From NCBI GenBank assembly GCA_017553505.1, contig JAFZLD010000001.1, forward strand, positions 1 to 64,000: DNA of 64,000 nt. The letters are read 5' to 3'. Source of the stretch: Lachnospiraceae bacterium (GTDB lineage Bacteria; Bacillota; Clostridia; Lachnospirales; Lachnospiraceae). This document shows, piece by piece, positions 11,341-64,000 of this stretch. Position numbers and translations under genes: made by a program. A model generated the notes under the pieces. It was not told where the DNA came from. It worked only from the letters and a program-made list of their open reading frames with translations, and made no database searches. How positions within the stretch are numbered: the first letter of the stretch is position 1; each line of letters starts with the position of its first letter.

Positions 11341-11570
11341 TTATCGCAATATCAAAAACACCTTGAAACTGCGATAACTTTCCCCATTTTGAGGCCGTTT
11401 TGCTGGGCTTTTATCGCAATATGAATTTCATTGATAATTGCGATAATATTTGCCTGTTTTTTTATCGCAATTTAGTGTGGATTTGATAATGCGATAATCG
11501 GTTTACATAACTTACTGTTTTCGGCATGTTTTTTATCGCAAAATGGGTTCCTTTTTATATAGCGATATAA
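11341..11570. repeat. Array 1: four TTATCGCAAT...ATTGCGATAA inverted-repeat units
   Basis: Four units at 11341-11377, 11411-11446, 11462-11497 and 11533-11570 each have a left half-site TTATCGCAAT and a right half-site near ATTGCGATAA. Unit length is 36-38 bp and the centres of about 16-17 bp differ. Unit starts are 70, 51 and 71 bp apart. The fourth unit is degenerate (TTATCGCAAA and AGCGATATAA). The array starts 30 bp after the PD-(D/E)XK-like gene. It is not a CRISPR, since the conserved parts are short half-sites. An array of the same family lies at 58812-59032. Confidence 0.9.
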
Positions 11571-11643
11571 GTGAGTAATAGGGTAGCGAAAGAAAACAGG
11601 AAACCACTGAAGGAAGAAATAATGAGCAAGCGCGTAAAACGAC

Positions 11644-58811: not shown

Positions 58812-59032
58812 TTATCGCAATACGAAAAAAGAATGGATTCTGCGATAAAAAATCACGAGTTATGTAAATCACTTATCGCAATACGTGAATCCATGCAAAA
58901 TTGCGATAAAAAAACAGTCAAAACTTATCGCAATTTACATCAAAATTTCATATTGCGATAACTGCCTCCAAAATCACCCTAAAAATGGCCAAAATTTATC
59001 GCAGTTTCAAATAAAAATCCGTATTGCGATAA
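58812..59032. repeat. Array 2: four TTATCGCAAT...ATTGCGATAA units without a nuclease-like gene
   Basis: Units lie at 58812-58848, 58873-58909, 58925-58961 and 58996-59032, each 37 bp. Half-sites are identical or nearly identical to those of array 1 at 11341-11570, while centres differ. Unit starts are 61, 52 and 71 bp apart (70, 51 and 71 in array 1). The array fills the gap between the flavoprotein promoter and a structured intergenic stretch, and it is better preserved than array 1. Confidence 0.9.
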
Positions 59033-61101: not shown

Positions 61102-61992
61102 ATGGAGTGGACAGAGTCATTGCAGGAATCAATTTCATACATCGAGGCACACCTGCTCGAAGAAATCAACTATGAAGACGCAGCGAAGCATGTGCACACT
61201 TCAAGCTACGAATTTCATAGGGCTTTCAGCTTTCTTACGGGAATGACCGTCGGAGCGTATATTCGTAACAGAAGGCTTTCTTTGGCCGGTCGCGAAATTG
61301 TTGAGACGGACGCGCGCATCACGGATATTGCAATGAAGTACGGCTACGACACGCCCGAGAGCTTTACCAAGGCATTCACCCGTTTCCATGGGGTTGCACC
61401 TTCTTTTGCCAGGGCTGAGTCTGCCAAGCTCCGATTATTTAATCCTCTTGTCATTAAGTTAACCGTTGAAGGAGGTTTAAGTATGGATTACAGAATCGTA
61501 CAGACAGAAGCTAAGAAATTTATTGCAATTGCAAGACCGTTTAAGAACGAAATCATCAATGACGAGGACAATCACGAGATCCCTGATTTCTGGGGAGAGG
61601 TTAATGCGGCTAAACTGCTCGAGCCGATTAAAGCGCTACGCCCCGCGGGCAAATGCGACCTTTACGGCTTGTGCACGCCTACCAGGGAAGGTGCCGAAAC
61701 ATTTGATTACGGAATCGGCGTAATTGTCGACAAAGATACCAAGGATTTCGATATGGCAGCGCTTGAGAGTAAGGGCTATCGCATCTGGGACGTTAATCCC
61801 GGTACCTACGTAGTCTTTGAATGCATCGGCGATGACGGCGATTGCATCAGTGAGACCTGGGAACGCTTCTACAAGGAATTCCTGCCCCAGATGGGCTACG
61901 AATCCTCGGAAGAAACGGACTATGAAGTGTACTTCGATGCCGGCAAGCCCGGAGTGTTCTGCGAGTTGTGGATACCTGTTAAGAAGAAGTAG
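61102..61992 (+). CDS. AraC-family regulator with a GyrI-like effector domain
   Basis: The 296-residue protein has an N-terminal AraC double HTH (INYEDAAKHVHTSSYEFHRAF and ITDIAMKYGYDTPESFTKAF). A C-terminal GyrI/Rob-type ligand-binding domain (about 130-296) includes YRIVQTEAKKFIAIARPF, YGIGVIVDKD and PGTYVVFECIG. Such proteins often sense amphipathic or toxic compounds. AGGAGG precedes the start. It faces the carboxylesterase gene across 335 bp. Confidence 0.9.
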   Translation: MEWTESLQESISYIEAHLLEEINYEDAAKHVHTSSYEFHRAFSFLTGMTVGAYIRNRRLSLAGREIVETDARITDIAMKYGYDTPESFTKAFTRFHGVAPSFARAESAKLRLFNPLVIKLTVEGGLSMDYRIVQTEAKKFIAIARPFKNEIINDEDNHEIPDFWGEVNAAKLLEPIKALRPAGKCDLYGLCTPTREGAETFDYGIGVIVDKDTKDFDMAALESKGYRIWDVNPGTYVVFECIGDDGDCISETWERFYKEFLPQMGYESSEETDYEVYFDAGKPGVFCELWIPVKKK

Positions 61993-62010
61993 GTAATTTG
62001 TGATATAAGA

Positions 62011-62045
62011 AAACCGCTGTCTGCGTGGGCAGATAGCGGTTTTTA
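62011..62045 (+). terminator. Terminator after the AraC/GyrI-type gene
   Basis: AAACCGCTGTCTGC and GCAGATAGCGGTTT form a 14-position stem with one wobble and a 4-nt loop, followed by TTTAT. Confidence 0.88.
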
Positions 62046-62086
62046 TTTATCTTTGGGATTGGGCGGCCCAGCGGCGGCTGTCGCAA

Positions 62087-62743
62087 CTAAACGCTTGCGA
62101 TGCTGCTGCTCTCCAGCTGATTCTTTAAGCGGTTGAAGTATTCTAACTGAAAATCAACCTTCTCGTGCCACATCTTATCGGCGGTTTTCGTGCCGTAAGG
62201 ATATTCGCGGAACTGTTTCAACTTGCTGATTCTTTTGTCTGTAAAGGCAATCTGCTCAGCTAAAGGCATTTCGCTGAACTTCATAAACTCCAGTCCTTCG
62301 TAGATACGATAAGCATCGAAACGATCGATGTTGTCGGCATCTCCCACTGTGAGTGCGAAAGGTGTTCTTTCGCCGCTAAAGTCCGAAGTGTCGTCCACAT
62401 GAATGGCTATTCCGTAGCACATTTCCTCAACCTCTGCGTCGGTGTAGCCCAACTCTTTGAAGAACGGTCTTGCTATCTCCGCGCCAACTCTTCCGTGTCT
62501 CGACGCATCCTCGGCCGACTCATACTGCACTGTATACCCGATGTCGTGGAGCAATGCCGCCACGTACATTCTTTCCTCATCAAAGCCCTCGCCCTTAGCG
62601 ATTTTTCTCGCAATCTTCGCTACTCTGAACGAATGCTCAATGCGGTATTCAACCATTCTCTCTGTTCTGTCCGTGAATCCCACAGTCTTCCTAAGTTCTG
62701 TCTGCAGGAAGTCCGCAGCTCTTTGAATTATTTCTTGTCTCAT
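62087..62743 (-). CDS. HD-domain phosphohydrolase
   Basis: The 218-residue protein has the HD metal ligands in EHSFRVAKIA, ALLHDIGYTVQYES and GDADNIDRFDAYRI. GIAIHVDD provides a further His. The family includes nucleotide and (p)ppGpp-like hydrolases; the substrate here is unknown. GAGGGG lies seven bases before the ATG. It lies 41 bp after the second PD-(D/E)XK-like gene on the same strand and might be cotranscribed with it. Confidence 0.85.
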   Translation of the reverse strand: MRQEIIQRAADFLQTELRKTVGFTDRTERMVEYRIEHSFRVAKIARKIAKGEGFDEERMYVAALLHDIGYTVQYESAEDASRHGRVGAEIARPFFKELGYTDAEVEEMCYGIAIHVDDTSDFSGERTPFALTVGDADNIDRFDAYRIYEGLEFMKFSEMPLAEQIAFTDKRISKLKQFREYPYGTKTADKMWHEKVDFQLEYFNRLKNQLESSSIASV

Positions 62744-62784: not shown

Positions 62785-63660
62785 TTAAATCAAATAATTC
62801 TCAATCATAGCCTTAATAACCTCGCTGTTAAGCGGTTTCTTAGTCGTCTCGAAAGTCATAATGAAATTTTCCCCGGGGATATAGCCGTTAAGCATGTACC
62901 TGCTTATCTTATCGACGTTTTTGCGCGCATAATCCTCCAGTTCCATCATTCCGAAGTGCTCCCACACGTATTCTTTTCTCGTGCGCACATTCAGACACAG
63001 AAAGTCCGGCCTAAACTCTATACTATCCATCACCAGCGGGAACTCATACCTGTAAGGTATTCCGTAAAGGTTGAGCATATTCGCAATATTTACCTCAGTC
63101 TTCGAGCGCACCCGCTCATTCTTAGCCGTATAATGCTCCGCATCCCCCTCCGCGAAATACCCCGGCGGATACACCACCCCCTCCCAGTTTCGGACGAAGG
63201 TATCCCGGTCTTCAAAAACCGGATTAATTAGTAGCCTTTTGCCCGGGTGCATATCATCATAAATCTTCTCTATTGCCGTACTCTCCGTCCTCCGCAGGTA
63301 TTCGTCCAGAATCCCCAGTTCCTTCTGCGCCTCGGCCACAAATTTCTTATCATAAGCCTTCTGCGATAGCGCGACTGCCAGCTTTTGATTATTGCTCTTT
63401 ATATATGTTCCGCAAGTGTCTTTCGACTCTGTTATATGGAAATATTGATATCCCTTGCCATACTTTCTTACTCTTAACCACCCCTCCGGCGCCTTAGCCA
63501 GTGCCTTAGTCCTAACTTTGATTTCGTTTCTCAGCAACTGTGCTCTCTGCTCAACGATTGTCCTTAAGTCCTTGACCCATTCTTCATTTAAATTTCTTCT
63601 GATTTGCCTCATTTTTTCAGCCTCAATGCATAAGATATGCGTTACAGCGCTTTTATGCAT
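62785..63660 (-). CDS. PD-(D/E)XK nuclease-like protein associated with AATGCATAA repeats
   Basis: The protein of 275-291 residues is a paralogue of that at 10541-11311. In 291-residue numbering the shared blocks are RSKTE (Glu189), RPDF (Pro218-Asp219), YVWEHFGMM (Glu234) and GENFIMTFETTKKPL. The N-terminal half is basic and helical, with KAPEGWLRVRKYGKG aligned to APPGKLEV of the other. The start may be the ATG at 63660, which lies inside a repeat half-site and has AAGGAAGG upstream, or the ATG at 63612, which has GAGG. With the latter start, repeat unit A is fully untranslated. Endonuclease activity is inferred from fold motifs only. Confidence 0.7.
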   Translation of the reverse strand: MHKSAVTHILCIEAEKMRQIRRNLNEEWVKDLRTIVEQRAQLLRNEIKVRTKALAKAPEGWLRVRKYGKGYQYFHITESKDTCGTYIKSNNQKLAVALSQKAYDKKFVAEAQKELGILDEYLRRTESTAIEKIYDDMHPGKRLLINPVFEDRDTFVRNWEGVVYPPGYFAEGDAEHYTAKNERVRSKTEVNIANMLNLYGIPYRYEFPLVMDSIEFRPDFLCLNVRTRKEYVWEHFGMMELEDYARKNVDKISRYMLNGYIPGENFIMTFETTKKPLNSEVIKAMIENYLI

Positions 63661-63943
63661 TATTTTCCTTCCTTAATTTTTGCCACCAATGCATAAATGC
63701 GCATAATTTAAACCGTTATGCATCTTTTCAGCGCGCTTAGATTTCAAACCCAACCACTCTCCATACTCTGGTGCTTGCATTGATGAATAAATGTAATGTT
63801 TTGGGATTCTTATGCATCATAGTCTCCGATTAATGTACGGAAACAATGCATAACAAGAATGTATTATGCCATTTATGCATTACGGCCATTTTTTACTTCT
63901 GTAGCTAATGCATAACAGCGGTTTTCGGCCTGATTTATCAGTC
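63625..63943. repeat. Array 3: AATGCATAA...TTATGCATT inverted-repeat units
   Basis: Five units of exactly 37 bp lie at 63625-63661, 63688-63724, 63782-63818, 63845-63881 and 63907-63943. The last has a degraded right half-site. Centres of about 19 bp differ. Start-to-start distances are 63, 94, 63 and 62 bp. The array is directly upstream of, and its first unit overlaps, the second PD-(D/E)XK-like gene. The unit length equals that of arrays 1 and 2 but the half-site is different. From 63944 to 64000 only a possible leftward TACAAT -10 near 63976-63981 and a CTCCG/CGGAG hairpin are seen. Confidence 0.88.
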
Positions 63944-64000
63944 CGTTACGTTCTCCGACTACGGAGACAAGGGGTATTGTACATTAGTAAAAAGAAAATG

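Follow-up and report, generated by a model that had tools for sequence, protein, structure and literature searches.

A family of predicted two-domain PD-(D/E)XK nucleases linked to private, helically phased arrays of inverted half-sites

We analyzed a stretch of 64,000 nucleotides from a Lachnospiraceae bacterium (hereafter the window, contig C8 of the 3.13-Mb source genome G000). A minus-strand open reading frame ending at 62785 encodes a protein with the blocks RSKTE, RPDF and WEHFGMM, which confirms what the initial annotation had described as a second protein of its kind. The upstream ATG chosen by the ORF caller lies 48, 47 and 49 nt from a conserved ATG in the focal gene (L001) and its orthologues L044 and L045, respectively; it thus keeps the reading frame in L001 but in neither orthologue, and the gene most likely begins at the conserved ATG at 63612. 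With this start, the first unit of the adjoining repeat array ends 12 bp upstream of the gene, and the overlap of that unit with the 5' end of the gene, as originally proposed, was not upheld. The locus is syntenic in three genomes. Its neighbours (61102-62743) look, by eye, like an AraC-type regulator, GyrI-like in its C-terminal part, and an HD-domain hydrolase. The features of the window are summarized in Table 1.

Table 1. Features of the window, with the evidence or remarks attached to each
Feature	Position	Strand	Evidence or remarks
Focal nuclease gene	62785..63612	-	275 codons, ATG start at 63612; ORF list, frame in orthologues L044 and L045, AlphaFold2 model
Putative N-terminal specificity domain, residues 1-110	63283..63612	-	AlphaFold2 model, tracking of half-site and identity, fixed differences
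Predicted PD-(D/E)XK-type nuclease domain, residues ~155-275	62788..63150	-	Conserved residues, PADLOC match, fold matches
Array unit 1	63625..63661		AATGCATAA N19 TTATGCATT, exact
Array unit 2	63688..63724		One mismatch
Array unit 3	63782..63818		Three mismatches relative to the exact unit
Array unit 4	63845..63881		Exact
Unpaired single half-site	63907..63915		Sequence
Candidate promoter, outer array edge	63976..64000, past window end	-	TACAAT 63976-63981, TTTACA 63999-64004, spacing 17; one locus
Cassette differing as a block from sister genome G013	63362..63982	-	Array, leader and ~83 codons; 40-column DNA identity; edges approximate
Paralogue, 256 codons	10541..11311	+	Same family, 30% identity
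Paralogue array, TTATCGCAA half-sites	11341..11571		3' of paralogue gene; last half-site degenerate
Orphan array, four TTATCGCA units	58812..59032		No family gene adjoining; 86% identical to array at G000:C19:47362

The AlphaFold2 model of the focal protein (mean pLDDT 92) predicts an N-terminal domain composed of a helix (residues 16-39), a beta-hairpin (45-60) and a long helix (73-108), and the family as a whole combines such a helix/beta-hairpin/helix domain of ~110 residues with a PD-(D/E)XK-type nuclease domain. Residues K171, E173, D203, E218 and H219 were invariant in all 152 aligned homologues (of 158 proteins, those with a stop, an X or a length outside 230-340 being excluded), and this acidic and basic active site, together with the predicted restriction-endonuclease-like fold, places the protein in the PD-(D/E)XK superfamily. 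The C-terminal region of the PADLOC model PDC-S68 matched the focal protein (2e-23), with just the last ~115 residues aligned. Fold matches obtained with VIA-align included I-Bth0305I, Bax1, TnsA and Vsr, the first three being tied within 1 Z, and the best match obtained with Foldseek alone was Bax1 (E 2e-3); in the predicted model, the catalytic domain is thus nearest in fold to I-Bth0305I, Bax1 and TnsA. Sequence searches of the protein against Pfam, NCBIfam, PHROGs and the PDB gave no meaningful match, two peptide patterns found no relatives in viral contigs, and no description of the nuclease/array family was found in searches of the open-licence literature.

Within 63626-63915, nine half-sites were found, eight of them exact copies of ATGCATAA/TTATGCAT and one ATGAATAA. 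Eight of the nine pair into four 37-bp units, two exact and two with mismatches; of the five 37-bp units counted originally, four therefore stand, and the fifth is the single half-site. The eight exact copies of ATGCATAA upstream of the gene compare with a maximum of three in 30 dinucleotide shuffles. The exact pattern AATGCATAA N17-21 TTATGCATT occurs at two places in the 3.13-Mb genome, both in the focal array (reversed control, 0), and no dispersed copy of the exact focal site was found elsewhere in that genome. At the outer edge of the array lies a sigma-70-like candidate promoter. A promoter scan of 63500-64000, whose reach does not include a site crossing the window end, found two candidates compared with 1.4 in shuffled sequences. 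As a general rule, a promoter upstream of the arrays was not detected (mean of 4.42 mismatches compared with 4.48 in shuffles, 88 arrays), and matches with at most two mismatches were found upstream of 5 of the 88 arrays and inside none. Judged by the position of the array, autoregulation of the focal gene is plausible; the idea of a birth site for repeats, also raised in the initial annotation, found no direct support.

The source genome contains nine family members with eight different half-sites, one being common to L008 and L009, and that of L005 being assigned by eye with mismatches. In agreement with the initial annotation, the paralogue in the window has a first array with a different half-site (TTATCGCAA/TTGCGATAA, units starting at 11341), located 3' of its gene, as are the arrays of the L008 clade. 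The genes and arrays of L008 and L009 are alike within unrelated flanks, and the likeness stops 2 bp beyond the L009 array. The orphan array of the window sits between genes named by eye as flavin-reductase-like and carboxylesterase-like, and is missing at the same place in the genomes G013 and G002, where the intergenic sequence differs throughout. Tandem Repeats Finder missed all three arrays in the window, because their spacers differ although the spacing is regular.

We then counted, for 156 of the 158 genes (L161 and L162 are the same loci as L044 and L045), the commonest 8-mer on both strands of each flank (900 bp, extended by 60 bp of gene sequence), and called an array when this word occurred at least four times and was as frequent in none of 50 dinucleotide shuffles. 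An adjacent, locus-specific array was significant at 118 of the 156 genes (131 flanks, of which 101 were upstream and 30 downstream), and the remaining 38 showed no array at the threshold used. Segments more than 1 kb away from the genes of L161-L240 served as controls and yielded three arrays among 115, one of which repeated the motif of the gene belonging to that segment; tiling the window as far as 63360 gave another three in 66 tiles, two of them family arrays. Both site orientations were present at least twice each in 113 of the 131 array flanks, and some arrays had a single orientation only (L077, L182). With start codons chosen by script, the nearest upstream site lay at most 150 bp from the start in 85 of the 101 significant upstream flanks (median, 78). 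At L083 and L086, arrays of the same half-site flank the gene on both sides, resembling element ends. On the family tree, the three phyla are largely separate (4 changes), and there is thus no sign of recent wide hopping across phyla.

The periods of the arrays cluster at 53, 62-65, 73-75, 84-85, 94-95 and 106 bp, with few exceptions (54, 56, 60, 61, 71 and 72). Tested against 10.5 bp, the 81 arrays with a period seen at least three times, a few of which are other tandem repeats (L097 and L193 downstream), gave a Rayleigh R of 0.87 (P ~ 2e-27), and the 57 distinct core words gave 0.84 (P ~ 5e-18); the best of 2000 random draws reached 0.39. Such spacing by whole helical turns would be expected of sites kept to one side of the double helix. 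In addition, the half-site columns of orthologous or homologous arrays were 83-100% identical compared with 43-94% between sites, and 11 of the 12 comparisons were significant (P < 0.05). The sole exception was the array C18a between G013 and G002 (half-sites 60/72, 0.83; spacers 119/157, 0.76; P = 0.13).

The initial annotation had read the matched divergence of protein and site as cognate specificity, and the comparison of homologues supports this reading. Among 101 homologues, a half-site was common to all 29 pairs with at least 70% protein identity, to 76% of 17 pairs at 60-70%, 41% of 68 at 50-60%, 21% of 131 at 45-50% and 1-6% of pairs below 45%, where sharing means a similarity of 0.6 or more and the pairs are not independent. 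The half-sites of L083 and L006, which are slightly under 70% identical, differ. A Mantel test of protein against half-site gave rho 0.138 compared with a maximum of 0.125 in 999 permutations (101 genes; L001 and L044 were excluded because their near-palindromic word gives no strand). That protein and half-site diverge together is strongly supported by these sequence comparisons.

We further located this signal along the protein. In sliding windows corrected for the remaining protein, the partial correlation with the site peaked at residues 49-68 (r 0.39; permutation 95% limit, 0.19) and did not exceed 0.22 in the nuclease domain, where it reached 0.16-0.22 around residues 189-217. When the protein was cut at residue 84, the partial correlation was 0.48 for the N-terminal part given the C-terminal part and 0.35 for the reverse; both parts keep a correlation with the site, and the N-terminal domain is therefore not the sole signal. 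For pairs 60-70% identical after residue 112, the site was common to 0/29 when the N-terminal part was less than 30% identical, to 1/4, 16/31 and 3/8 in the intermediate classes in rising order, and to 5/5 when it was at least 60% identical. The half-site signal sits mainly in the N-terminal domain.

At two loci, the DNA itself differs as a block. Between G000 and G013, identity at the focal locus is mostly 0.90-1.00, apart from single dips to 0.62 and 0.82, but is only 0.40-0.78 per 40-column step in a block that extends from ~-370 to ~+250 as counted from the start codon; G002 resembles G000 inside this block as much as elsewhere. L045 is set apart from L001/L044 by 29 fixed differences, one of them an insertion, which all fall in residues 1-83; the remainder of the protein is ~98% identical. 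G000 and G002 carry the site TTATGCATT, and G013 carries, at most positions, TTATCCATT. Likewise, L005 and L078 differ from ~-560 to ~+390 (0.20-0.73 inside, 0.88-1.00 outside), with the sites CCCATCCAT and AAGGTGTG. A weaker case of block difference is that of L006/L082 compared with L083. The sequence blocks seen at the two loci are thus those of an array and a putative recognition domain replaced jointly, with the nuclease domain left in place.

Arrays were also found away from any family gene. In G000, TTATCGCA pairs occur at 29 places and form nine arrays, seven of which lie away from the listed family genes. Pairs of TTATC[CG]CA, which comprises TTATCGCA and TTATCCCA, number 47 in G000, 28 in G002, 40 in G013 and one in G017, and were absent from the other 14 of the 18 genomes of the genus (reversed control, 0). 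Pairs of TTAGTCAA number 21 in G013, 17 in G002, eight in G011 and seven in G016, of which eight (G013), four (G011) and four (G016) adjoin the gene itself; again, none was found in the other 14 genomes of the genus or in the control. Some of these have no exact partner in residence: there is no exact cognate nuclease for the 15 TTATCCCA pairs of G000, and no listed nuclease of G002 has exactly the TTAGTCAA site despite the 17 pairs there. When 40 and 47 viral stretches with TTATCGCA or TTAGTCAA pairs, respectively, were inspected, each had one pair and none had an array, which by a rough estimate is the chance level.

The TTATC arrays are roughly symmetrical, with unit spacings of 71 or 61, 52, and 71 or 61 bp, and the flanks of their outer and inner half-sites differ. 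Among the 36 pairs formed by nine chosen G000 arrays (C5, C14 and four other TTATCCCA places being excluded), seven align over their full length with all four ends at most 3 bp from the outermost half-sites, and the remaining pairs align partially or overrun by up to 30 bp. We examined 16 orphan arrays, and found that they sit between larger ORFs, one being overlapped by an 86-aa ORF and one touching its neighbour by 21 bp; the flanking genes are co-directional in nine cases, convergent in four and divergent in three. Of 11 array places compared in three genomes, C4b, C18a and C19b are occupied in all three, at six (C5, C8, C6, C11, C14 and C19a) one or both relatives are without an array, C22a carries a different half-site type in G002, and the comparison of C3 extended to a single relative. 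When the orthologous places C8, C5, C18a, C4b, C11, C6, C14, C19a and C22a were aligned, none showed a clean insertion with a target-site duplication; the best empty-site candidate, C19a, lies in a region that differs otherwise too, and C8 and C5 are not clean.

The half-site type of the dispersed arrays tends to follow that of the resident nucleases. G000, with CG-type nucleases, has nine CG and six CC arrays, and G002, with CC-type nucleases, has one and eight, respectively (P = 0.024; the mixed array C70 of G002 is omitted from this comparison). At C18a, G000 carries TTATCGCA and the other genomes TTATCCCA, and at C4b, C6 and C14 the type departs from that of the resident nuclease. Near-focal ATGSATAA pairs also form arrays remote from family genes. 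By hand count, all 21 orphan units of this type in six arrays, some of which are mutually orthologous, are mixed (ATGCATAA plus ATGGATAA), the unmixed cases being the two-unit array C19 and the lone unit G002:C86:18672; the units look as if they were read by a heterodimer or a relaxed protein. The mixed arrays are L123, L124, L126, L133, L134 and L135 in G000, G013 and G002.

L146 (G002:C61) and L124 (G000:C22) occupy the same place with a similar linker, and have TTAGTCA-type and ATGCATAA/ATGGATAA sites, respectively, an apparent in-place change of half-site type. At the place where G000 and G002 have the C6 array, L157 (G013:C35) is a different inverted-repeat cluster. The sequence GTTTACATAAC/GTTATGTAAAC turns up repeatedly in long linkers, across arrays whose half-sites differ (L027-L035 and others), and also where no array was detected; GTTTACATAAC is found at 30 places in G000 (L241-L270; control, 3), nine of them within detected TTATC[CG]CA arrays. 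L252 (G000:C13:111749) is a GGTGGGAA array with a ~64-bp period and no listed family gene adjoining.

As a whole, these results are best explained, and we consider it probable, if the two-domain nuclease and its private array constitute one genetic element. Phasing, pairing, constraint and co-variation suggest that the N-terminal ~110 residues would read a half-site of ~9 bp and that a dimer would occupy two inverted half-sites ~20 bp apart; since units repeat every 5 to 10 helical turns, successive dimers would all face the same side of the double helix. The array usually lies a short way ahead of the start codon, and by occupying it the protein would repress its own expression; this part of the mechanism is rather likely. 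The C-terminal PD-(D/E)XK-type domain, its active site kept, is predicted to cut or nick DNA. For at least three half-site families, gene-less arrays are scattered between genes in genomes with a matching or closely related nuclease, and these may have spread in a REPtron-like partnership through copying or conversion provoked by the nuclease, a step that we put forward tentatively. New specificities would arise by joint recombination that replaces the array and the recognition domain, while the nuclease domain stays. In its fullest form, the proposal is that a homing-type nuclease and a helically phased array recombine as one cassette and that the nuclease spreads or converts gene-less copies, which would make a PD-(D/E)XK REPtron; this is conceivable, and we would not yet call it probable.

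Alternatively, the nuclease might be autoregulated without mobility, the arrays being operators that silence a dangerous, perhaps defensive, nuclease, the divergence of half-sites preventing cross-regulation among up to nine paralogues, and the gene-less arrays being remnants of lost genes or sites of a regulon. The short distance of most arrays from the start codon, the synteny of the focal locus and the promoter-like site at the outer edge of its array would all be expected of operators, and the relation of the nuclease domain to the defence candidate PDC-S68 in 60/60 members would suit a silenced defence gene. However, the gene precedes its array in the L008 clade, complete arrays of four units reappear elsewhere in the genome with common ends, orphan arrays occur whether the flanking genes are co-directional (9 of 16), convergent (4) or divergent (3), and there is no general promoter signal upstream of arrays. 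We therefore regard this explanation as unlikely, although it deserves to be kept in mind.

It might also be supposed that the dispersed arrays are host sites for chromosome structure or transcription insulation, maintained by a domesticated nuclease. The arrays C4b, C18a and C19b stand at the same place in three species, with 142 of 144 half-site columns conserved at C4b, and the 16 examined orphan arrays lie between larger ORFs, as this would predict; nevertheless, the array is missing in one or both relatives at 6/11 places, C22a has another half-site type in G002, 14 of the 18 genomes of the genus lack TTATC[CG]CA pairs and 14 lack TTAGTCAA pairs, and the half-sites of C18a are hardly more conserved than its spacers between G013 and G002, which makes the idea improbable. 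That the arrays act as RNA, with inverted half-sites in the leader folding into hairpins that the protein binds or cuts, is highly improbable: such half-sites could indeed pair in RNA, and the focal array would be in the leader if the outer promoter were used, but the spacing follows the DNA helical repeat, some arrays have one site orientation only, and others lie 3' of the gene or are orphaned on either side of genes. Finally, a match of half-sites through co-inherited flanking DNA, without recognition, would agree with the linkage of each array to its gene and with the similar flanks of related proteins, but can practically be dismissed, as half-sites remained 83-99% identical in seven comparisons in which the DNA between sites dropped to 43-59%, and the association is stronger with the N-terminal domain than with the equally linked nuclease domain.

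The reading that nuclease and array form one element has several consequences. The natural block exchanges point to ~110 residues as the recognition part, and the family makes it testable how an array of sites and its binding protein change specificity together. With inverted arrays measured for 101 genes, and 215 stretches confirmed by one scan, it would amount to a large, naturally occurring catalogue of proteins paired with their DNA specificities, from which a recognition code could be read by comparison and which could yield a family of compact DNA-binding domains. A further implication is that palindromic arrays may become dispersed without relying on HuH transposases. Within the open-licence literature, our results point to a new kind of enzyme-plus-repeat element in gut bacteria, whose function we infer from such comparisons.

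Among known systems, Type I restriction enzymes exchange the recognition part of HsdS by recombination while the catalytic part is kept, and the family resembles them in this respect; here, in contrast, one small protein is concerned, and a DNA array travels with the recognition domain. PDC-S68, a PADLOC candidate defence protein of ~1200 aa, has a C-terminal nuclease domain related to that of all 60 family members scanned, whereas the focal protein does not have its full length, and its nuclease domain follows a small N-terminal domain of another kind and has a linked array. Unlike the EDxHD homing endonucleases such as I-Bth0305I, the family showed no intron, intein or interrupted target; its sites adjoin the gene itself and are intact, and no clean empty target for homing was found in a comparison that covered array places rather than gene insertions. 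The nearest analogue appears to be the REPtron. In REPtrons, TnpA-REP (RAYT) lies near repeats of its own type, the repeats are dispersed extragenic inverted doublets with a spacer, and enzyme and repeat co-evolve (PMC3116915, PMC8266576). The present family shares each of these traits, and dispersed extragenic non-autonomous repeats matching the enzyme were found for three half-site families, some arrays having no exact resident cognate. The defining enzyme of the REPtron is, however, a HuH tyrosine transposase, and the protein described here has no meaningful Pfam, NCBIfam or PHROGs family and a predicted restriction-endonuclease-like fold, that is, an unrelated PD-(D/E)XK-type nuclease. Moreover, REP palindromes fold in single-stranded DNA, whereas the half-sites of ~9 bp described here stand ~20 bp apart in helically phased arrays, and array and recognition domain differ as one cassette. 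Judged from sequence, the family would thus work most like a REPtron while departing from it in the enzyme that defines one.
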